Source: Pomacea canaliculata
Lineage: Eukaryota > Mollusca > Gastropoda > Architaenioglossa > Ampullariidae
Reading direction: 5' to 3'
Length of the DNA stretch: 64,000 nt
Assembly (NCBI RefSeq): GCF_003073045.1
Contig: NC_037593.1
Location: 18,404,725-18,468,724, forward strand
Shown here in pieces: positions 22,544 through 58,400 of this stretch. The position numbers were made by a program, and so were the translations under genes. The notes under the pieces were generated by a model. It made no database searches, was not told the origin of the DNA, and worked only from the letters and a program-made list of their open reading frames with translations. How positions within the stretch are numbered: position 1 is the first letter of the stretch; each line of letters starts with the position of its first letter.

Positions 22544-23394
22544 ATGGTGTCCTGGACTGTGGTGCTGGTCTCTCTCTTCCTCTTCCACGGGTAAGTCGCA
22601 GACTTTTATGTGTCCACATTTACATCCTGATGGCGAGAGAGAGAGAGAGGGGAGAAGTCTGGTGTGATAACTTTTGAAATGGATTGACGGGAATGGTTTT
22701 GGTCTACCTTTCGGTTTGTCTGTCTGTCCGTCCAGCCAATCGGTCTTCCGTTTCGTGTATGTATATGTATTAATGCCACTCGGATAAAGATTATGATGTT
22801 TACTTCTATATATCTCTCACTTTCTCTTTCTCTCGTACACACATGCGCGCGTGCGTGCAATAATAAACGCTGATATAAAATATGCAAAAGAAATAATTGT
22901 GTGTAGCTATAAGAAATATCTTTTGCTGTGAAGAAAAAAAAAACATGTACAAGCTCTCGTGCCCATCCCTGCTTCCTGAAAAAAAGACTTCTCAGCACTT
23001 TGTTCCCCTAGAAACGCCTCTACGACTGAGTTTTGAAAAGGGAAAGAAAGCTTATTTCAGGACAGTGATATCAAAAATGATCGGTTTCTGACAAGGATTG
23101 ACGAGGGGTGTACTACAATACACTCGCCTACTACAGTACACACGTGTGTTGTTTGTCAGCACAGGTGCTCTTTATTCCAGGCGCATAAAGCCGCCCAGTG
23201 GGGGCATAATTACCGTCTGTGAGATCAGATGGCTGTCGGTAGTCGTGCACTTACATCCCACAGTTCGCGAGCGTGCGAGTTCGCCAAATACGAAGGATAC
23301 CGAATCCACACGAACGCGCAAGAAAACCCACACATTACTTTACTCGTCCCTGTCGTCTGGTAATTGTGTGTGTGTGTTTGAAAAGCCGCAGATT

Positions 23395-38435: not shown

Positions 38436-41400
38436 GCAATGCTGCTGCTGTTGGTTTTAATTTTGTTTCTGCTTTTGTTCTGCCATGTGTTAGCGCAGAT
38501 TAGCATGCGAAAACTAACGAAAGAAAGAAAGAAAGAAAAAGAAAGAAAGAAAATCAAGCTTAATTCAAAAGAGCGCTGAGATAGTTGATTGCAGCCTACT
38601 CTGTTGTTCACACTAAAATGAACTGTTTAGCTCTATTCTAACCAAGACCAGTGTATTTTTCGAAGTTTACTTGTTTGCATCTTCTTCTTTGTTTAATTAA
38701 TGGCTCCGCATTTTTTCAGAAGTAAAAACAAATAGAACCTAATTCTCGTAGCTAATATGTTCGTTACCCCTCGCGGAAATTCATTTCTTTCTGCAGATCG
38801 CCTGCCTGGGTCAGGACCACTCCTTATTAGCTCACATTTGAAAGCCATTTTTGTGCCGAGGGTTTGTCGGAGAGACTAGGTTTCGACTGCTGAGAGAAGA
38901 TTCGCAACGTCTGTTTTAAACTAATACGCCCGGGGCGGCAAACTTGACATCAAAGAGTTCATGCAACGGGACTCTAACGGAACTGCGTCAGCAGAGGCCC
39001 TATAGCCGGTGCTTGTGTGCGTCGGGAGGAATAGGGTATGGTGTATGTGGGGTATGCTGTATGTGGGGTATGCTGTATGTGGGGTATGCTGTATGCAGGG
39101 TATGCTGTATGCAGGGTATGCTGTATGCGGGGTAGGGTGTATGTGGGGTATGTTGTATGCAGGGTGTGCTGTATGCGGGGTGTGCTGTATGTGGGGTATG
39201 CTGTATGCGGGGTGTGCTGTATGTGGGGTATGCTGTATGCGGGGTATGGTTTATGCAGGGTATGCTGTATGCGGGGTAGGGTGTATGTGGGGTATGTTGT
39301 ATGCAGGGTATGCTGTATGCAGGGTATGCTGTATGGGTGGTATGCTGTATGCAGGGTATGCTTGAGGGAGGAAAGAAGTCTGTTAGCGAGGCAGGAAGAG
39401 AAAGGATTTAACTGAATTTTCTTCTGATTGCCCATTCATCTCTATTTTTTTCTCTTCAGTTCAATCTTCAACTGTGGTGCTGTAAATATTTTTTTTTTGT
39501 GCGAAGGGAGTTGGGAGGGAGTAAGGGGGGAACTGAGAGCCGGATGGGGGAGAGGAACGTTTAGAAATGCTAAATTAAATGCTAGTGGAAAATGCGATTC
39601 ACGCTGGCACGTACTCATCTGCGTGCTTGCTTGAAACGTATTCAGTAATTATCATTAGCTTTTCTTTTTTCTTTCTTTTTTGTTTTGTGTTTTTCTGGGT
39701 TGGAGGTTGTGGGTGGGGGGTAGTTGTGATAAGTATGTGAGCCTAGATCAAGTTTATAACCAAATGGTATGTAGACAAGTATGTTTGCGTGTTTATCTGT
39801 GCAGCTGTGTGTGCATGTGTGAGTATTTATGTGTACACGTGTGCGTGTGGACCTGTTCTTGTTTATGGGTGAGTACGACTGTGTGTGTATGTGTGTTTGT
39901 TCTCGAGTGCGTTCGTGTTTGTGAACTTATCGTTATACTCATGCGTGCGCGTGCCTGTGTGTGTGAGAGAGAGGGGGGTAGAATGTAGACCGTGCTGAGG
40001 CGGTACTTCACGTGTACTCGGCTCCGATCTACATACCGTGAGTGTCGGAGGGAACGAGCACTCCGATAACTGGTGAACACACTCACCAACAAAACCCACG
40101 CGCTTGATTCTGTGTAAGCGATGCTCTCCTACGTTTTTGGCCCCCCGAAATAGTAACAGAGAGAGAGAGAGAAGAAGAAAGAAACCCCCAGTGAAATGCA
40201 ATGCTCCACCCATGACTGTTGACTTCACCACCATTTCCCGACCTCGAGTTACTGCGGGGTGCACTGTGCCTACGTCACTAGGCGGCGCTCCACAGGGTAG
40301 ATCACTCCCTAGAGACGTACTTACCTCTCGCTCCACCCTGCTCCTGCAGAAATCTGTTTCTGACACGTCTGACCTCCGTGATTACAACACCTTCCTGCGC
40401 ACTGCGAGTTGTGAACCTAATTTCCTCCCATTCCGATTGCCATCTTTCTTCTATATGCATTATGTATGTCTGCACAGCAAGTAAGAAAAAAAAGGTATAA
40501 AAATACTTGTGTTGTCTATTTTGGTTCAAAGTTGTTTTTTCAAGCGATGAGATTTCCAGAAATCACCTAGACTAGAAAGACTAGAACATAAAGGACTAAA
40601 AATAAAGAGATAAAAGACGTTATCTCCACGGCAACATATCCCGCTAGTCAGCATTAAAAGAGTGAAGGACCAGAGGGTCTGGTACTGAATGTAACGGATG
40701 TAACACTTTATCACATTTCATCGTTTCACACCGTCTAACCAAAAATAGAATGAAATCGTTTCTCTCCCACCCCACTCACAAAAAATAAATAAATAAAAAA
40801 AGAAAGGAAAGATAGGAATAAAAAAGTGATTGAAAATGAAGGGCGCGGATGTAAGACAGACATTTGCACGAGAAGCAGAGAGACTAAACAGACAGATGAA
40901 ACCTGAGCGAGAGAGAGAGGAAATGTGGGTGGAGGAGAGGAAGGGAGAGGGTGAGGGAAGGGGAAGTGGAGGAAGAAAAAACGTTTATGGCTCCGATAAT
41001 TTGTTTTTCTTTACTTTATTACCTAGTGTAAAAGGCCATAGCAGGCAGGTAATATGCGACACTTCTTACCATCGTGTCTTATCTGTCTTGTGCATCTCAC
41101 AGCGCGTGTTGCGTCTGTCTCGTCGTCTACTTCACTTCCACATCTTCGCTCCTTAAAATAACGGGTACACTTGTGATTACGAGCGTTGGGTTTACCCGAG
41201 TGTCAGCAATGAGTGCTTGGGGCCGCGTGTTTATGCTCTTCATCTTGATGGCGATTTGCGATAGATCCTCTGAAGTACCGCTCAAATCTTTTGACAGACA
41301 AAACGCCCTTCCAGAAATAGCAAGCAGAGGGTTTTTTTTATAAATATAAAAATAAAACAGACATTTGCTCCTTGGAAAACCTATTGCAGTACAAGTGTTG

Positions 41401-43595
41401 ATGATAGTTCCTGCTTCAAAGGTGATACCTAGATTGGTCTTGATGTGCATCATTTCGAGTAAACTCACTTGTTTGAGAAATAACATCGAATCACATTATT
41501 TTACAGTGAAATCTTGCTCTCATGACCAGACTGCACATAAACACCCCTTCAGAAACGGGTGGGGTGGTGGTGGTGAGGGAGGAGTAAAGAAGTATGAGAT
41601 CTGTGTGAACATGAAGACCAGTGCCTACAGGTGCTACCGCTTGTTGCAGGTCCTGCCAGGCTAGAGGGACCCACGATCCAGAAAAGTTTCTAGAAGAGGC
41701 GGGGCAGATCTACACAACGATATTCCACAAGTACAACAAACGGGTGAGGCCCCCGGATGACTACCCCAGTAAGGTTAAAGTCAACGTTCAAGCCGTCCTC
41801 ATCCACATACGGCAGCTCGACCTGCTCAAACAGGAGCTGGAGTCGGTCCTAGCCCTCAACATAGTGAGTAGAACTCTTACATTCACCGCCATTACACTTC
41901 TTCCGCCATCTCTCGCCTTCCTTCCTTTGTAGCGCCCATCGTCTCTTCCTTGCTTCGTGCTTCTTGTTCCGTGGAGGTTAAAAAAGTTTTAAAGAAAGTG
42001 GAGATGATTCATTGCAAGATATCAATTACCAACATGGGAGCAGAATGTTTTTCTCGTGCCTTTGAACCGCACAGTTCTCACCTGGGTTCACTTTCATTTT
42101 TTTACTGTGACGTCACAAAAGTATACTCGCCGAGTAGCTAACACTTCACACGCTCGAAGCTTTCAAGTTGGTTGAGATTGTTCAGAGAATTAATTTTTTT
42201 GGAAATTAAAATTCAGGCCAATCCAGATATGTTCTTCTCTTAAAAAAAAAACCCAACAACAAACAACAAACAAAAAACAACAACAACAAAACAAAAAACA
42301 AAAAACAGCAACAAATATAATGATTGAAATTATCCAACGCATTTTGTAACAATATTGTGTTCTTCACAGAAACTTTAAATTTAACTCTAAGAAGGACTCC
42401 AGCTACAGCTTTTATTTGCTCCAGTTTCACATTTTTTGCATCTTACTTTTTCTCCTGATTACTTCTGCTAGGTAATGAAGAAACTTCGCCTATGAATGAA
42501 CCTGTAAATTTGGAATGAGGTTTGGCTGTTTTGGTGTCTTGTCTCTAGACATGGGATGACAAGCGGCTGGCCTGGTACGCCTACCAGGTGTACAACATAA
42601 CGGAAGGTGTGGATCAGGTATGGAGCCCTTCCATCATCTACCTGAACAGGTAACATTTACCAGGGGCTAGAAGTTTACTTTTTGCGCGTCAGTGACGAAG
42701 TAGGTAATTTCTTTGCTGGCGAATATTTTACAGTTGCTTTCTGTCTTCGTTCTGCTTTTAGAAATCATTTTTTTTTTACCAGAGTCTGTACCGTTTCGTT
42801 CCCGGCTGATTTAAATGAGCTTGTCATTTGAGACCAGATGATAAGTGTGAAATGGCTAAAAATAATTCTGTAATCAGGATGAAAAAGGAACAAGTTGAAC
42901 CGTTCAGGAAAAGGGGTCAGATTATAGTCTTCACCGCGAAATAGATGTTCAGGTTGTCAATGGTAGCGCTAGAGAAGTTATCATAAAGACCAGTCGTGGG
43001 TTCATGCTGTCAAAAGTATGATATGTGAAGATAATGAAATAGAATAAAGAATATCAATAATGATTGTGACGACAACGACGACGATGATGATAAGGATGAT
43101 GATGTAAAACTGGCTATCTTTTTCAGTGCTGTTCCGCCAAATCCGTTGTTCTTTTCCAAAGTGACCATCAGCTCAGAGGGACTGATCACGTGGTTTAGAC
43201 AAGAAGTAGTCACCACAGTGTGCCGCACGAATCCCAAGGAGGCAACCCAGACGTGCGCCATCAGCCTCGGCTTCACCTCGCCGCATGCTGACGAAGAGTT
43301 TGGCAATGTAACGACATTTGAGTTAAGTGAAGAGTTCTCCAATCACGCCTGGGAAGTGCAGCCGGGAGAAACGGAAGTAGACAACTCCCGCAAAATCAAC
43401 TTTGTCCTTTTTCTAGAACAGCTAGAGCCAATGGCCGACAGACCAGAAGACAAAAACCAGACAGATGCTATGGATGTCGTGAGCAACGGAAACGCCAGCA
43501 AAGCGAGTTCCGTTCTCGTTGTCATGGCTACTAACTGTTTGGTAGTCACTGTGTTCCTGTGCAATTGTATGCTTTTGTACTTTAACTTGTATTGA
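22544..43595 (+). CDS. AChBP-like Cys-loop ligand-binding-domain protein with C-terminal anchor
   Basis: Exons 22544-22590, 41650-41863, 42549-42649 and 43127-43595 join in phase to 276 aa. Exon 1 gives signal peptide [16 protein letters not shown], completed by SCQA in exon 2. Residues 30-222 follow the extracellular fold of Cys-loop receptors: [11 protein letters not shown] (40-50), TWDDKRLAW (88-96; AChBP TWSDRTLAW), [12 protein letters not shown] (110-121; SSLWVPDLAAYNAIS), and a Cys loop C153-C164 with 10 intervening residues (12 in Lymnaea AChBP). Loop C is short and lacks the vicinal cysteines. Trp53 of AChBP is Ala84, Trp143 is Thr171 with Phe170 beside it, and WxPD is WSPS. Five N-glycosylation sequons (N86, N103, N181, N231, N243) fit a secreted protein. 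There are no four channel helices; after a polar linker, residues 250-276 are hydrophobic to the stop, as in a GPI signal or tail anchor. Expected on the cell surface; its ligand is unknown. AATAAA at 43953 may be the poly(A) signal. Confidence 0.8.
23397..23470. repeat. (CAGA)n followed by (GGCA)n microsatellite
   Basis: About 12 tetranucleotide CAGA units pass into GGCA units at the right end. A closely similar compound array lies at 25157-25262. Confidence 0.95.
23879..23955. repeat. (GGTT)n microsatellite
   Basis: About 19 GGTT units are nearly perfect, directly after a TGACGTCA palindrome at 23873-23880. Confidence 0.95.
24538..24612. repeat. Compound (CT)n/(CA)n microsatellite
   Basis: CT-, CA- and again CT-dinucleotide runs alternate. 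There is no coding potential. Confidence 0.85.
25013..25050. repeat. (GAC)n/(GAT)n trinucleotide repeat
   Basis: About 11 mostly GAC triplets run with GAT interruptions. They account for the Ser-rich and Val-rich antisense open frames. Confidence 0.9.
25157..25262. repeat. Compound (CAGA)n/(GGCA)n/(CAGA)n microsatellite
   Basis: CAGA units flank a central GGCA block, mirroring the composition of the array at 23397-23470. The two probably share an origin or a slippage-prone motif. Confidence 0.95.
25664..25719. repeat. (TTG)n trinucleotide repeat
   Basis: About 18 perfect TTG units. Antisense open frames encoding poly-Asn or poly-Thr are artefacts of it. Confidence 0.95.
26010..26130 (+). 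mobile_element. 3' tail of a non-LTR element with (ATT)n end
   Basis: GAAGCGCCTTGAGCTTGCCC, then GGGTAGGGATAAGAAGC and CTATACAAGC, run into about 17 ATT units ending at 26129. This is a standard 3' terminus of CR1/L2-like LINEs or their SINEs. The 5' part is not recognised. Confidence 0.6.
32460..32575. repeat. G-rich (GAGT)/(GGGT) degenerate repeat
   Basis: GTGA, GAGT and GGGTGAGG units run for about 115 bp, G-rich on the plus strand. His/Thr/Ser/Pro-rich antisense frames across it are artefacts. Confidence 0.85.
33718..33842. repeat. T-rich (TTTG)n/(TTG)n tract with G9 run
   Basis: TTTG units, a G run at about 33768-33776 and TTG units form a strand-asymmetric T/G tract. There is no coding content. 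Confidence 0.85.
35796..36010 (-). CDS. Unrecognised open frame that looks like a coding exon
   Basis: On the minus strand an uninterrupted frame includes [20 protein letters not shown], then [20 protein letters not shown] and [18 protein letters not shown], ending at TGA 35796-35798. The composition is balanced, with Trp, Cys, Tyr and Phe and no repeat, unlike other frames in this intron. The first ATG is at 35991-35993 and the frame stays open upstream to about 36016. It could be a terminal exon or a single-exon remnant. I do not recognise a family, and no in-phase partner exon was found. It lies antisense within intron 1 of the AChBP-like gene. Confidence 0.3.
37015..37262. repeat. Diverged minisatellite, about 47-bp unit
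   Basis: The motif CAGAATAC/CAGAATAAA recurs at 37041, 37089, 37136 and 37179, with a weaker copy near 37228. ACATAAATCA and GAGGGAGA-like boxes sit in register between them. About five diverged copies are present. Confidence 0.7.
38393..38437. repeat. (TTG)n trinucleotide repeat
   Basis: About 15 TTG units, followed by CTG units. It produces poly-Thr in the antisense frame. Confidence 0.95.
38517..38553. repeat. (GAAA)n microsatellite
   Basis: About 9 GAAA units with one imperfect unit. Confidence 0.9.
39033..39362. repeat. 15-bp minisatellite, about 22 copies
   Basis: The unit GGTATGCTGTATGCG, with T/A/G variants, repeats for 330 bp. Fifteen is a multiple of three and the unit has no stop in several frames, so long open frames appear on both strands (Cys/Tyr/Val/Met-rich on plus, His/Thr/Tyr/Pro-rich on minus). 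Variant units recur in higher-order blocks, for example GGGTAGGGTGTATGTGGGG at about 39130 and 39276. Confidence 0.95.
40138..41649. other. End of intron 1, no feature
   Basis: Short GA-rich runs (40158-40183, 40907-40980) and AT-rich DNA lead to the acceptor at 41648-41649. Open frames here lack family resemblance. The last 100 bp before the acceptor are G-rich (GGTGGGGTGGTGGTGGTG). Confidence 0.5.
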
Positions 43596-46200
43596 AGGAT
43601 TTAGATGATTTTTTTCCTAGCTGCATTGTCTTTTTCTCTCATTTCTACGCCCCACCATTCATACACTCTCATGCAACAAAAACATCGTTATTTCTTTATG
43701 CAACTTTATGTTATGTCACATTTTCGAGGGTTTTTTCCATCCTTATATATCATAATTCTGCCTTATACGAACCATAATACTGCAAATGTGAAATTGTATT
43801 TATTTTGATAAACTGCCCACATCGATTTCAAACTACTCTCTCACGCACATTAACAACACGCTGATGATCTGTCTTGGAAATACTAAAACAAAAGTGTTTT
43901 ACAGATGCAGTCTCCTTCGAGCAGGATTTTTTATGGATCTTTATTTTGATGCAATAAATGGAATATGGCGAATATTAAAATGTGCACGAAAGAAACCAAG
44001 GGAGCATGAATGTTGGCTGTGTTCTCGTCAAACTTCATTGATATTTTATTTCTTTAACGTGCTGACCATTGAAATAGAGGTGGCCAGGGATGAAAGCTAT
44101 TTTGTCTGCACCCAAAGTCTAGTTACAAGAGTAAGAGATTTCCATGTACATACTTACCAGCCATATTGCTATATTGCGTGTTTTTGCTGGAGAACTAGGA
44201 TCCGAACTACATATTTTCAAGGCCAGCCCGAGTCAAACACGAAATGAACCTTGAAGTTGCAATCAGGTTAACAGGACATAAAGCAGTCGTTACTTTTACA
44301 CCAAATGCATTTTATATATTTGAAGAAATGAAAGCAGTCGTACATTACCCTTTCATTTCTCACGCCTCTGAAAGGCGCAACTACAATGCGAGAGCTTTGA
44401 CCTCTCGGTAATGAGACGTTGCCATGACAGTTAACCGACTTCTGTGACGTCCAGGGAAAATTGGGTCTTGACATCTTTGCAAAAGGCAGATGAAAATTTC
44501 AAAGTTCAAGATCTCTCATCTTGTGATCGAACAGATTTGTTTATAATTTAGGGAATCAGTATGTGTGATGAATGAGTCCAGGCCAATAATTTTGCACTCG
44601 AATTCATCTGTAACACCAAGTAAATCTAGAGACCAAAAAAAATAAAAATAAAAAAATAATAATAATAATTCATGCAATCCTATTACTTGACCAGCATGGT
44701 CAAAATATATCCAAAATGCAGTTTCACCACTTTCCTCCTGATCATCTTCTGCATAGTTATTATCAAATTTCATAGTTAAATCATAAATACCTTCATAGGC
44801 TGAAGATTGTAAATGATAAAACAATGGGAAAAAATGTAGCACGATCCTATGAAAAATGCGAGTGGTGGTGTTTTACACAGCTCTTCATAATAAAATTCAT
44901 TTCTGAACACGTCTACCTCATTTATACGTTATGCATGAGTTATCACAGTTGCACATCCCGCATCTGACCCAAGTAAAGCAGCAAAATGCAACAGTTTGTG
45001 AAGGACGACACCTTAGTGTGCAAGTGAATGATCTGTCAGCGATCTTCCGGTTGTAGGTGTGATAAATCACGTGCTTCTTCATTGAGTTTACAGACGCATT
45101 ATCACGATTGACCAAAATGTCATAATCATCGTTAGACAAGTATGCCTTCGATTTAAAAGACTGCAAAAATTAAACTTTCCGGAAACAGTTTTCTGCAACA
45201 GCAGATTTTCGTTTCTTTTTTTTTTTTCTGTTCATTTCAAATCGCTTTTCTCGTTTTTTTTCTGTTGTTATTGAATGTGATATGAAATAAATACGTATGA
45301 GTATATTTTAAGGAATATGTCACTCACACTTTATATACTATACCATTATTATTATTTATACACCTTCAAAGGTGGGCTTATTTATGGCGATTTACATGCG
45401 TGCACTTACGTGACGACACACCAGCACACGACGAACAGGCATCGAATACGTCTTACAAATCATCACACCTTTCCCTTTCACACACAGCTGGGTAGAGGAA
45501 ACCTGGAGTACCTGGAGAAAAACTACCGACGTTAACCGTGTAAACAGGTGTCACATCAAGAGAAATGTGTGTCAGACCCGAGTTCTGAACCCTAGACACC
45601 CAATTCTTATTGTAGTGCTTTACCTACTGCGCCACTAGCCGCGCGCGCACAAGAAGTGTGTCGATCTGTGTGTGTGTACGTGTGTTTTAGTATATGTGCT
45701 TTCTGTTTGGTGGACTGGAGCAGGAATAGGTTATACTTGGATGGGATGTCAGGAACAGATTTTAGAATATTTAATCCAGAATATAGTGGCAGGAACGTCT
45801 GTAAACTTTCAACAATAAATTTAAAAAAAAGAAATTTCATTAAAATGACTTATGCAAACATAATTAGATGCGACCTTTCTGTCGAAAAACCCTGGCACAC
45901 ATATGTGCTACTCTATAGTGACCTGTATCTGTTTAGACTCATTTATTGGCCTAATTGATATAAAAAGGCTTCCGTCTACTCTAAAGGGTTTTGGTGAAAA
46001 GGTGATGAAGTCAATACTGAATGTTTAGCGCGCATTTCCCTCATTGGATGCGAGTTCAGTGTGCTTCACACGAAAATCAAAAACGAAACGAAAATGGTAG
46101 AGAAAATAAACTACATTTTAACCCTGGCTCTTATAATAATCCTCACCGAACTCGAGAGTATTAAGGAACATAAGAAGAGCAATTTTAACGGTTAATAGTC
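43596..46200. other. 3' flank of the AChBP-like gene and intergenic DNA
   Basis: The first 0.4 kb is probably 3' UTR, with AATAAA at 43953-43958. The 127-codon frame at 43864-44247 has no family resemblance and probably overlaps this UTR. A SINE-like piece lies at about 45540-45650. Nothing else is recognisable. Confidence 0.5.
45540..45650 (-). mobile_element. tRNA-derived SINE-like fragment
   Basis: On the minus strand GGCTAGTGGCGCAGTAGG is a good A box, and GGGTTCAGAACTCGGG follows at B-box spacing. It is probably a SINE head. Confidence 0.6.
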
Positions 46201-46451: not shown

Positions 46452-49400
46452 AGTAAGTTAATTTAGGATGTCAGAAGTTGAGCTTTGTCGTACAGTTTGT
46501 TGATGTTGACATATCGTTTTATTGCTTACGAAGAAGTACAAATAAAAAAATAATACATTTTGCGTTGTCGGTAGCACATACTGGACTTGTTCATTTTTAA
46601 AAGTAGGATCAGATCAGCAGATTAATTTGACTTGAAGCATGCAGCGAAGGTTAATAGACATTCTTGCATCTGCTTAATGATTAATTGTTCTCCTTATCGT
46701 ACACTACTGTTTTTAACGTTTACTTTCCAAGTTTAGCGAAGCAGCCACTTTACCTTCATTTTAATTACTTTGTATGCCGGGAGTAGAACAATGTGATAAC
46801 TTATTATTTTATGTATAAGTTTAGGCTTTTTTTTTAATTTGAAAGAAAATTAAATTAGTAAGGAGACTTGTAGTTTTAAACTGTTAGAGATCCAGTGAAA
46901 CAGTTTAAGGGAGTTTCTGAAAGTAATTTGAAAAAGGTGAGTCAAGCTGCTGATTAAAACTAGTTATGCAGCTTGGTGGAAGAGAAAGGGAAGAGTGTTC
47001 AAAGCAAAGGGACTAGTGTATGCAAAGGTTTTCTGACTAGTGAAGCAGAGTATTGTTCAGAATAATGTGGAACCAAAGGTATCAGATGCTGATCAAAGCA
47101 TGCAGGATGTGGTCTGGATGGTGAGGCAGGAAGAAAGTAGCACGGTGGTGGAAATATAACAAATACCAACATGTAAACAGATGCATCAACAAATGTGGCT
47201 ATATTTAAATTTTACTTTGATGATGTGTCTGACTTTTGCAGTGCTTGGTTCACTGTCAGCACTTGGATCTCTTCAGTCTGCTGCCACTGCCAAACAACAA
47301 AGTGAAAAAGAGGTAGCTATCAAACAGCAGATAAAGCAAGCACAGCTGCAAAGAATTGAAGAGTTGAAAAAGAAACGTGAAAAGCTGAAGGAACTGTTGC
47401 AGACTGCGGCAGCTGAAGCTGACGAATTACACGCTGTGGAAGAAAATGGCAGTGGCTCAGAGCTAAGGCGTGCAGAGGCATATTGCAAGAAGCTTCGTGA
47501 ACAATTAAATGTCTACAAATTAACAGGTATGCAGCCTGAAGGTTATTTTTGTGGAACATAAAGCTAAAATTAGATTGCAAAAAGGAAGATATAGAGATTT
47601 CTCTGGAGCTGGAGTCAATGTGTTAATGGCTTATGGAGTCCAATTCCAGTTGTGTTGGTGCATTTATTATGGTGAAGCAATATTGGCTCATATAAATTGC
47701 TACTAAGAGGAATAAAATGCCTCAAGGTCATGAAGCCTGTCCTTAAGGTCAGGAAAATGATCTGTGATTGCATGGGTTTTGTCTGGTGTGATAGATGTAA
47801 ATGTGATGGTATGAATGTGTGATGGTGGTTTTGATTGATCTTGTTGTGTTGTGTGTGTGGTTGTCACCCTTTCTTCCTTATAGAGGTGCTTAGTAATTGG
47901 ATAAATAAAGTCGTATCTTACATATTTGCAATGGTTACATTTCAAACAGTTGTTTACATGGAAATTCTCAGCCATTCAACTTAATCCTGTGATGTTATTA
48001 AATCAACAGGTGTTGCAATTACTGAATCAGACCATGTCAGCAAACTTCTCTGCTTCACTACATCTTTTAAAGGTATCTATCTGGAGTCATACCATGTGAA
48101 ATTGCAGCGTTTGTCTTCAGGACACTTCAAAATTGCCCACCATGACCTCCCTGCTTTCATTGTTTTCTCAAAGCTGCCAGAAAATCTTGAAGTGAAAGAT
48201 CTGCAATCATTTGTGCAGCCTGTCAGAGAGTTATTAGCAATGTATATCATTCGTCGAGAAGAAGTAAAGCAAGCTGAGGTGAGAGCAAATGTCAAAATTT
48301 AATCTGGGTGTCACCATCTTTATGTTATCAGCTCAGTTTGTTTGTCAGAGAAGACTGAAGGAAGATAGTAACATAGCAGTACTGAAATATTGCAGAAATC
48401 AGTCCTTTTATTGTTAAGCAGATGAATTAATTCAGTGCTGACCAAATATATCACTACTTTTAGTAGCAGATGAAGAAGGAAAATATTTCGTGCATCATAT
48501 ATCAGCTAAGAACATTACATTAATGTTGACAGTTATATAAATTTCTTTTGGGGTTTTTTCCAGACCAAATTCTCCTCAGTCCTGTATGTGGCTGAAAAAA
48601 GTGGGCCAGTTGATTTCTTATGTTTTCGTCTTGACATTCAGCCAAACCTGCAAGCAGAAATCACTTTGAAGTATGCAGATCTATGTACTGCCACACCAAC
48701 AACAGTTACTGTGGTCCCAGTTAAGAAAGGTGTGTAATTCAATCAATTCTGTCAAACTGTTTTCCTGTACAGCTTCAGATTCTGTTACAAATATGAAAGA
48801 GTACTTAACATTTTCTGTGCCTATGTACATTTTGGGATATCTTACATCATTTGTTAGTTCATCGAAAAATTTAAAGCGTGACTAAACTCATTTTTGTGTA
48901 ATTTGCCCATCTTTGCACCATCAAAAACATGACTTACTAAAAAAAAAAACCCCCAAAAAACAAAAAATCAAATGCGGCTTTCATCCTCAAGCTAGGGTAG
49001 GTAGGTGATGCATGTTTTTTGGTTGGTACCAATTAGGGAATTGCCTAATTCAGTATTTTATTGCTTGTCCAATTGAAATATACTCCATTTCTATAATTTG
49101 AGTTTAGTCACACTTAAAAGTGTAGGGAGGTGGCAGGTAATTTTGGGGATGGTGTATATGTGGAAATGTATTATAATGTAGATATTTTATTACTTTAGAA
49201 TGTATTTTGCAAAAATGTGATCCTAGACCTTGTGGTCAATAAATTTACTGAGTTCTCATTCATCATGAAAGGTGAACATAATACACTATATAATTTTTTG
49301 TTATTGTAGGTAATCTTGTGCATCAAAAGGGACTGCCTGATTCTGTCAGCTTAGAGCTTCAGCATGTTTTCTCAGAGAACAGATTAACTGCTGCCATTGG

Positions 49401-55453: not shown

Positions 55454-58400
55454 TTAGTCTTGTTTCACTGGTGGCCGTCCACTGGGCTTGGACGGTGAAA
55501 TGAAAGTAAAATACACAACGACAGCAATTCCCAGCAGATGTAACCAGCAGTATAGTGATCTGAAACACAAATTATTTTTCTTAGTAAACCATGTGTAAGT
55601 CCTATAAGACACAAGAACAATTTTTCAGATTCAATTATTTTTTTCTTTTTAGCAAGACAGTTAAGCATGTCTGCAAGAAATTAATAAAAATAAAAGTGGA
55701 ATGTTTCATTAACATGTAAATTTATCTTGCTTCGCTGTCAACATCATCTTCAGAAGTATGAACATAAGTGTTTTGCAAAATGAGAAAACTTACAGATAAA
55801 TGCTTAGGGATGGAATAAACTCCAGGGTTAGAAAGTTGAAGGTTATATAGGCATTAACCAGGCGCGTGAAAACAAATGTTCCAACATCATACAGTTTCTT
55901 CATGTTGTCACTAGTTTGGAAGAATGGTCGCACCCTTCGTCGCACCTAAATCAATGAGTGTATGTATAAAGGCACAGAGTTTTTTTTAAAAAAAAAACTA
56001 AATACCTGTGCTATGAAATAAACAAACAAAAAAAATCAGAAAATTGTTGTTCAGATTCATTCAGATCACAGACCTGCCTATCAGGTCATTCTTGACTAAA
56101 TGCAGTTTTAAAGCTAAAGATCTAAGAAAAACCAATGAAAAGTGTTCAAAACTGTTAAATAACAGTTAAAGAATGCAATCTTGATTGAAAGAATGAAAAG
56201 TAGTTGAAAATGTGGCAAAAGATAAGATTTCACACATCATTTTCACAAATACATTTAAGAGATAAATAGCTATTGTATCTAATATTCAATTAAATTTAAA
56301 TTTCAGTTAAAAGTATGAATAAAATGAAGTAATATAATAACAGTACTACAGTAATAGCTACCAAACAGTTTTAAGGATTGGTGTCTACAGAACTTGTAGC
56401 TGTGTATGCAAAGAGATCATAACCCACACAGCCTTTACTTTCTAACAAAAATTTGAAAGACTCCAATGCTTTTTAAAGTACATGCATTCTTTGTTTTAAA
56501 AATGCTGTAGATCTTACCAGCCTAGCTGCCACTGTAAACAGGGCTGCACTGCCAAAGGTGAGGTAATACCCTGGATAGAAGCCATGCCAAATGGCACTGA
56601 TAGCAAAGACAGCAAAAGTCTGGTATTTTGGGGCACGATCATACACAACTCGACGAAGCCATACCAAAGTCTTCTGGTTCCATCCATCTATATTCACCTT
56701 CAGACTGTCACCAAACTGAGTAAATAACATGAAATTTCAATTAAAATCACTTCAAGCACTTTTACTAAGCAATATCATGAAGCTAACGATAAAAGAAATA
56801 CACACTTTGAAAAGTACAGACACTTTATTTCCACACATCTGCAACTAATCAGCATAATCAAAAAGTTCTCAGAGTCCTATAAACACAAGGAGAAAAATTA
56901 GTTAAATTTGGGTGCTGCAGTATGGCAAATAGAGACTGAGTTATTTTATAAGATGTGAAACGTATACTCAGAGAGCTGATCATACACAATAAATAAGAAG
57001 CAACTGAAACCTGCATGATGTTCTCCCCACTCAAACCCCATCCCCACCCTCCTTCATCAAACAGACAAATCTTTACTGACCTCAACAACCCACACATTAA
57101 CATTGTCAACCAAGTCCCACTTCGCCTTGCCATTTTCATCATAGCCATTGAATCCAAAGCCCGCAGCTACATTGATGGCTTCTCCTGAATAGCAAAAACA
57201 AACTTGTATTAATGATGGGTTCACTGGCCAGAAATTTCCTGCAATACTTGTAATCACAGCTGGGACTGTTATGCTTTAACTCTCAAATGTTTCCTATCAG
57301 AATAACTCTCTTTTCTCTACTTAAAATTTCATAACATACTTAAGCTTCTTTGACATTTCATTTGCCTTTCACAAAAAAAAGAAAGTACAGGTAAAATCAG
57401 AAAGTCATAATGTTATATGTAAAAAGCTAAACTTGGTTTATACAAATTTAATCAATCTAGATGTCATCATGCTTAAGATCCACCATAGATTAGTTCATAA
57501 TAAAAATCCCAGTATCTCTATTATTAAACCTTACCTAAAATCCAGGCAAAGTAATATTTGTATCTGGCACATGTCATGCAAACCAAAATATAGAGGTTTT
57601 TCTCAAGGAAGGATTTCTCATAGAATTCTTGAGCTGCACAAATATTTCAAACAGTCATTTTAAAACTACCATAAAATGACTATTTTAGGACATATAATTT
57701 AATTGAATTTCAAATTATGTTTTGTGCTTTTAAGTGCTCTTTCCAATTCCTACATAACCTACTGGAACAATCATCTATAGGTATTTAGATTTGTCAAATA
57801 AGATATTTAGCAGTTCCATGATAAAATTTCAAAGTACCAAAAGAATAACTTACAAAGAAGACTTTCTGGTGGACAAAGCAAAGGTGGCAGAACTACCATC
57901 AGGATTCCACTCACAGCAGCAGTGATGAGCTTCTTGATTAAAACTGCCTGATTGTTCAAAACACATCTACATGCATCAGATTAAAACAATGCAATTATCA
58001 AGAAAAATCAACATCACTCGCAATTATTAAGTTTAGCAAAAAACGCTCTATACAATAAATTAACAAAAAATGCTTTGTACGTAATCCTATTTGACAAATA
58101 TTGTATTAATTTTGTAAAATAAACAGGCATAATATGAGTATAAACACCAACATAATAGATCCAAATATGTCCTGAAATTATATTATTAGCATTTATTTAT
58201 TATTAACCTCCCTTTCCTTTTTTTTAATTTGGAAAAAAATGTATTCACTGTTATTGTAGATGCAAGCAGTTTCTCTTACTGTATCCAGAAACAGAATTTA
58301 GCTGAAGTCACAGATATTAAAATTTGGACAACCTGAAAGTTAAATATTGTTTGAGTAGCTGCAACACATTCACAAAACCCTCAGAACTTTCTACTATCCT

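Follow-up and report, generated by a model that had tools for sequence, protein, structure and literature searches.

The stretch examined here, a 64,000-nt window of the Pomacea canaliculata genome (contig NC_037593.1, C4:18404725-18468724), raises the question of what becomes of the ligand-binding domain (LBD) of a Cys-loop receptor when no channel follows it. On its plus strand the window carries a four-exon gene whose product has an LBD and then a hydrophobic tail that runs to the stop codon. We consider it probable, though with considerable doubt, that this product is a surface-held, non-conducting domain derived from a nicotinic-type receptor, without classical acetylcholine (ACh) binding and with either an accessory role or a non-cholinergic partner. 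The original prediction had described it as a binding protein like the molluscan acetylcholine-binding proteins (AChBPs), tethered by a C-terminal end with the layout of a glycosylphosphatidylinositol (GPI) anchor signal.

Joining the segments 22544-22590, 41650-41863, 42549-42649 and 43127-43595 gives exactly 276 amino acids, in frame and without an internal stop, and all three introns have GT-AG borders. The exons, sequons, linker and tail that had been pointed out at the start are all present; the interval first given for the gene, 41650 to 43595, holds exons 2 to 4, while exon 1 lies outside it. Sequons occur at residues 86, 103, 181, 231 and 243. Residues 240-249 ([10 protein letters not shown]) form the linker, which is rich in small residues. 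The elements of the gene are as follows.

22544..22590, plus strand: coding part of exon 1, with the ATG, a hydrophobic signal-peptide core and the phase-2 donor CGG/GTAAGT.
41650..41863, plus strand: exon 2, N-terminal part of the LBD (PF02931 positions 3-51, E 7.2e-5 alone), placed by frame and splice sites.
42549..42649, plus strand: exon 3, from WDD..LAW to [10 protein letters not shown], between loop D and loop A (PF02931 positions 56-91, E 0.004).
43127..43424, plus strand: LBD part of exon 4, with a short Cys-loop (C153-C164), degenerate loops B and C and the last strand, placed by alignment.
43425..43511, plus strand: polar stalk in exon 4, residues 221-249, which holds the small-residue linker and two of the sequons (231 and 243).
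43512..43592, plus strand: C-terminal tail in exon 4, residues 250-276, 27 uncharged, hydrophobic residues, not M1-like.
43593-43595, plus strand: stop codon.
43953..43958, plus strand: AATAAA polyadenylation-type hexamer, 358 bases past the stop, a consensus match only.

When the 41.6 kb that precede exon 2 were scanned for a first exon, eight ATG-to-donor candidates passed, among which the one at 22544 had both the strongest donor and the most hydrophobic core; its donor scored 10.4 bits, within the top 0.3% of the GTs in the window. The joining of exon 1 to exon 2 across a 19-kb first intron is predicted from the sequence. Another possible first exon at approximately 41210 ([10 protein letters not shown]..., within an open reading frame) was rejected: its possible donor is, by eye, in the wrong phase and is not listed in the donor scan. 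A 16-base minisatellite of 20.6 copies (39034-39362) lies within the 19-kb intron and is open in several frames, giving rise to spurious long open reading frames. At the other end of the gene, exon 4 is the terminal exon by donor strength, as the donors in use score 6.9-10.4 bits and none within exon 4 exceeds 4.4 bits, which argues for an LBD gene that stops here. Alternative splicing out of exon 4 was considered and discarded, since the donors that it could use, at 43308 and 43479, are weak ones, with 4.3 and 2.9 bits respectively.

The homology of the product to receptor LBDs is clear. Pfam assigned the 276-residue protein, which has a signal-peptide-like start, to a single family, PF02931 (Neur_chan_LBD), over residues 35-158 (64.6 bits against a curated cut-off of 26; E 1.1e-17). 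Exons 2 and 3 each match this family on their own, under the curated cut-off; exon 4, taken by itself, does not match PF02931 and reaches only PF07418, below threshold (12.8 bits, cut-off 21.4). The earlier claim of a whole ligand-binding fold thus stands by profile up to the Cys-loop; beyond it, where the profile does not reach, the LBD rests on an alignment to the alpha-9 subunit (to residue 199) and on the MAFFT alignment described below. The closest solved structure is the LBD of alpha-9 (4d01, E 7.8e-10), and AChBP chains in the PDB follow from about E 2e-6. In the snail's own genome (440 Mb in 24 contigs searched) no close paralogue was found, and the best of 20 matches, the gene's own four exons aside, is a C5 gene with 29% identity (E 4.9e-11), which belongs to a cluster where in most frames the LBD is followed directly by M1, the first of the four membrane helices (M1-M4). 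That tandem cluster (L009-L012, C5:31.30-31.33 Mb) holds seven LBD hits, five of them with M1 in the same frame; its LBDs are uninterrupted by introns and lack the loop-A Tyr. We read its members as intron-poor nicotinic-like channel genes, one of which is the closest paralogue just named.

The introns give clues to the origin of the gene. The first intron within the LBD is a phase-0 intron that precedes the W-x-D motif by one residue, and the second, in phase 2, comes just past the loop-A 'Y-N' (L-N here). Both borders of exon 3 match, in position and phase, those of the canonical exons of two genes of the nicotinic acetylcholine receptor (nAChR) type in this genome, L042 and L057 (a comparison of two genes, made by eye), and in profile terms the exon borders (3-51, 56-91) agree with those of multi-exon genes such as one on C1 (1-54, 53-92, 102-216). 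Because its LBD introns share position and phase with these two genes, we take the window gene not to be a retrocopy and read it as a nicotinic-type subunit gene that lost its channel, so that descent from an ordinary subunit gene of this type is the likely history. The gene is absent from the 130 PF02931 matches of an exon-by-exon genome search (150 of 175 candidates scored), and therefore other diverged LBD genes can escape such a search too.

No channel domain was detected in the window after this LBD. PF02932, the Pfam channel family, has 71 matches genome-wide. No match falls within the window, and the single one on C4 is about 10.8 Mb away. A profile of our own, built from 12 M1-M3 segments of this genome (some of them M1-M2 only), was more sensitive than the PF02932 search; run over the window in six frames, it reached at best 8.5 bits (E 0.27), which is noise level. 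At six control loci its top scores were 26-57 bits, and frames bearing M1 scored down to 16. The prediction of a channel-less LBD that ends in a hydrophobic C-terminus is therefore supported by Pfam, PF02932 and the M1-M3 profile, and splicing of exon 4 on to channel exons, which would speak against it, finds neither a strong donor in exon 4 nor a channel domain in the window.

Elsewhere in this genome the LBD runs into M1 in 14 of 20 sense reading frames (three antisense frames dropped), and the other six (two in L011, one in L013 and three in L017) have a channel-domain match nearby. Among 21 further LBD stretches, 12 continue into M1, and eight of the other nine have PF02932 downstream on the same strand, C14:12465644 being without. 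At six more loci M1 was readable in L061, L063 and L064 and not in L062, L065 and L066; PF02932 follows further on for L062 and L066 (C9:156839 and C7:4517879) and for L065 it does not. The PF02932 search is itself incomplete: of the at least 49 clusters of LBD hits in the genome (a lower bound), 13 of the 49 counted have no match within them or up to 30 kb downstream, and in seven of these 13 M1 is readable. As six clusters are left with neither (C1:19256577, C10:18985832, C12:10247688, C12:19041572, C12:19114976 and C14:12465243), the window gene may not be the sole channel-less LBD gene of the genome. L065 (C10:18984700-18986100, minus strand) has an LBD frame with a hit at C10:18985832 and a second one at 18986276, just beyond the stretch. 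PF02932 has no match up to 30 kb downstream of it, and the stretch that was read shows no M1; it is possibly a second channel-less LBD gene, or a decayed one.

To follow the binding site we aligned the protein by MAFFT with alpha-9 and with nine LBDs from the same snail genome, of which three were last exons only, and read off the aromatic cage at its usual positions: a Tyr in loop A, a Trp in B, two Tyr in C and a Trp in D. In the window protein the loop-D Trp is replaced by A, the loop-A Tyr by L and the loop-B Trp by T, with an F one column earlier. Loop C is several residues short and has neither Tyr nor Cys; no Tyr occurs after residue 197 until the tail, and the vicinal Cys pair is missing, there being no Cys between 164 and 258. 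By this alignment the cage appears to be gone on the principal and complementary faces, and the ACh pocket looks dismantled. Both cysteines of the Cys-loop are kept (C153 and C164), with ten residues between them and no FPxD, while all ten compared sequences have a 13-residue loop with FPxD; the pre-M1 basic motif was not found in the window protein either. A short Cys-loop without FPxD fits what one would expect once an LBD no longer has a pore to gate.

These positions bear on the AChBP likeness of the original prediction. Like the AChBPs of Lymnaea, Aplysia and Biomphalaria, the protein is a channel-less Cys-loop LBD with a signal peptide, but AChBPs are described as soluble proteins in which the aromatics of the pocket are strictly conserved and the C-loop has a disulfide (PMC3423370), and the window protein has no cage aromatic, no vicinal Cys pair, a short loop C and a hydrophobic tail, so the description as an AChBP-like binding protein is not supported. 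A soluble protein of the AChBP or ACCBP type, with its tail trimmed or non-anchoring, whose ligand in the haemolymph or the extrapallial fluid would be ACh or amorphous calcium carbonate, would fit the missing channel and the hydrophilic Cys-loop without FPxD; AChBP Cys-loops vary in length, with 16 residues in a spider (PMC4569296), and snail AChBPs and ACCBPs exist (PMC3423370). We regard it as very improbable, given the missing cage and Cys pair and a tail that argues against solubility. Moreover, the Biomphalaria AChBPs have 205 amino acids plus a signal peptide, and of the introns of their gene only intron 1 is reported to be common with non-molluscan receptor genes (PMC3423370), whereas the window gene keeps the two LBD introns of this genome's receptors. 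ACCBP resembles the window protein in being AChBP-related, channel-less and active outside neurotransmission, a likeness by description only, and differs in forming a di-pentamer in shell and nacre growth (PMC3423370).

What, then, would hold the protein at the cell? Residues 250-276 contain no D, E, K, R or H, have a mean Kyte-Doolittle value of 1.93 and end at the stop, and so the tail without a basic cytosolic end is as it had been predicted. An uncharged 27-residue end as hydrophobic as this is unusual and not proof: 11 of the 1490 stop-terminated frame ends of at least 27 residues in the window have one, this gene included. The MAFFT alignment placed the tail opposite M1, which suggested a relic of M1 in a truncated channel. 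We rejected this reading on a position-specific score, for which 22 M1 segments from the snail's own genome were used. The tail scored -7.0, below the mean of its shuffled versions (-5.1; 65% of 5000 scored as high as the tail). Real M1s, each left out in turn, reached 11.6-50, and a further eight segments, two signal peptides and six M2-M4 helices, lay between -15.7 and 3.6.

Two kinds of anchor come into question, and the evidence divides between them. The published GPI pattern has a small omega site, a small omega+2 residue, a spacer of 8-12 residues and 15-20 hydrophobic residues (PMC10491789). S240-N241-G242 would serve as the omega region, and the small residues, the polar spacer and a hydrophobic end up to the stop are present, so that the proposed GPI layout is there in part; the spacer is about 7 residues and the hydrophobic run 27. 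The same tail could instead be a permanent single-pass transmembrane (TM) helix of type I with almost no cytosolic end, a sub-case of the surface-held reading. Its 27 hydrophobic residues exceed the 15-20 of a GPI signal, and a crude membrane-insertion score of -2.72 makes it slightly more hydrophobic than any of six GPI tails used for comparison (-2.31 to 1.41) and places it in the range of eight helices from two channel genes here (-5.76 to 1.04). The absence of a basic residue after the helix, the three Asn inside it and the small-residue and polar spacer ahead of it, typical of GPI sites, argue the other way. Hydrophobicity did not separate the two, and if anything it pointed towards TM. 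With a slight lean, we tentatively predict a GPI signal from these features; a single-pass helix, likewise a prediction, is a serious possibility that falls somewhat short of an even chance, and it is improbable that the tail is neither.

Several observations weigh against a surface-held, repurposed LBD. The M1-M3 profile can miss segments, as a probable channel exon in L011 (31328394-31328900) reached only 8.4 bits, and an antisense frame in L012 without known meaning reached 8.7. Codon usage does not set the tail apart from non-coding sequence, as 27% of 2059 null stretches reach its score. The tail also exceeds the usual length of a GPI signal and, read here from the genomic sequence, could be lineage-specific or mis-read. 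Among the snail LBDs compared, the loop-A Tyr occurs in none of the seven channel-bearing rows with a letter there (L042 and L057 do have Tyr), the loop-D Trp is missing in two of six and the loop-B Trp in two of nine, and only two of nine show the Cys pair. Since cage loss is common among channel-bearing snail LBDs, it does not prove a changed role. Loops B and C also fall in the least conserved part, and in loop A of the window protein a Tyr stands one place earlier, so that a register shift is possible. What is unique to this gene in the compared set is thus less the loss of the cage than the combination of a deletion in the Cys-loop and the absence of M1.

Some points speak for a decaying receptor gene, a pseudogene or a mis-built model with other exons in the real transcript: divergence is strong, with the best paralogue only 29% identical, the first intron spans 19 kb, codon usage is uninformative, and weak channel segments can be missed. 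We hold this to be improbable, as the three LBD exons are open and in frame with good splice sites, no channel exon was detected in the window and a poly(A) hexamer follows the stop.

The explanation that we favour is that a nicotinic-type Cys-loop subunit gene, without a close paralogue here, would have lost its four-helix channel and kept only the extracellular domain. A signal peptide would export the LBD, and a newly gained hydrophobic anchor at the C-terminus, either a GPI signal or a single-pass helix that follows a polar stalk, would keep it on the outer cell surface. Such a protein would conduct no ions, and because the cage is absent on both faces a homopentamer should not bind ACh at the classical site. 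Most likely it would act as a tethered non-signalling subunit. Through the subunit interfaces of its fold it would form pairs with its own kind or with channel subunits and so alter how these assemble or are displayed at the surface, or else it would bind a different, non-cholinergic partner. A tethered accessory protein seems more likely than a neurotransmitter sponge. One form of accessory role is a dominant-negative subunit that co-assembles with ordinary nicotinic-type subunits in the endoplasmic reticulum and removes or silences them. The subunit fold is kept at least to the Cys-loop, and the many LBD clusters of the genome offer possible partners, but pairing between distant subunits is often restricted, and we judge this form unlikely. 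By analogy with the GPI-anchored lynx proteins (Ly6, Lynx/SLURP), which modulate nicotinic receptors and are functional counterparts, not relatives, the protein might be a receptor-derived, lynx-like surface protein without pore or ACh pocket, which from the outer leaflet regulates cholinergic receptors of the snail or senses another ligand; we would give this version no more than a minor chance.

The layout itself has been seen before, LBD-TM genes having been counted in molluscs and annelids. Table 1 of Jiao et al. 2019 (PMC6896357), on lophotrochozoans, has 55 LBD-TM genes in 10 of 14 species and 142 LBD-only genes in 12 of 14 (row sums). The window protein shares with the LBD-TM class an LBD followed by a non-channel TM segment, on hydropathy alone, and this class adds some weight to a single-pass helix. 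The sections of that survey used here give domain counts, with no tail, pocket or function described, and Pomacea is outside the 14 species (PMC6896357). LBD-TM is thus already known as a domain count, and automatic gene models may inflate such counts. Among the matches listed in a literature search, none described a GPI-anchored or tail-anchored AChBP by its title or the start of its abstract, subscription papers and preprints being outside the search. Neuronal nAChR subunits are like the window protein in LBD homology (alpha-9) and in the LBD intron positions and phases of two nAChR-type genes here; they differ from it by the M1-M4 helices, FPxD Cys-loop, cage and pre-M1 basic motif that it lacks as far as detected. 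Alpo4, an orphan lophotrochozoan nACh-like receptor, also has a divergent LBD and has lost the vicinal Cys pair, but it retains aromatic cage and channel (PMC10338036); P. canaliculata is included in the nAChR tree of the same paper. Molluscs have large expanded nicotinic-type gene sets of unknown use. If the reading given here is true, channel, gating loop and transmitter pocket were dropped together while the fold was kept on a membrane tail, and the fold would have been reused as a tethered surface module, for which this gene, without close paralogues, is a small testable case.

As for the rest of the window, Rfam (at the gathering threshold) and tRNA scans gave no matches. About 4.4 kb past the stop of the window gene is an exon of a CENP-O-like kinetochore gene (PF09496, E 8.7e-6; 47985-48299, plus strand). 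A coiled-coil-like frame ahead of it (47160-47558, plus strand) may be part of the same gene; its only matches, to pinin and FUT8, are sub-threshold. Further on, at 56473-56736 on the minus strand, lies an exon of an MBOAT acyltransferase (PF03062, E 2.4e-12).

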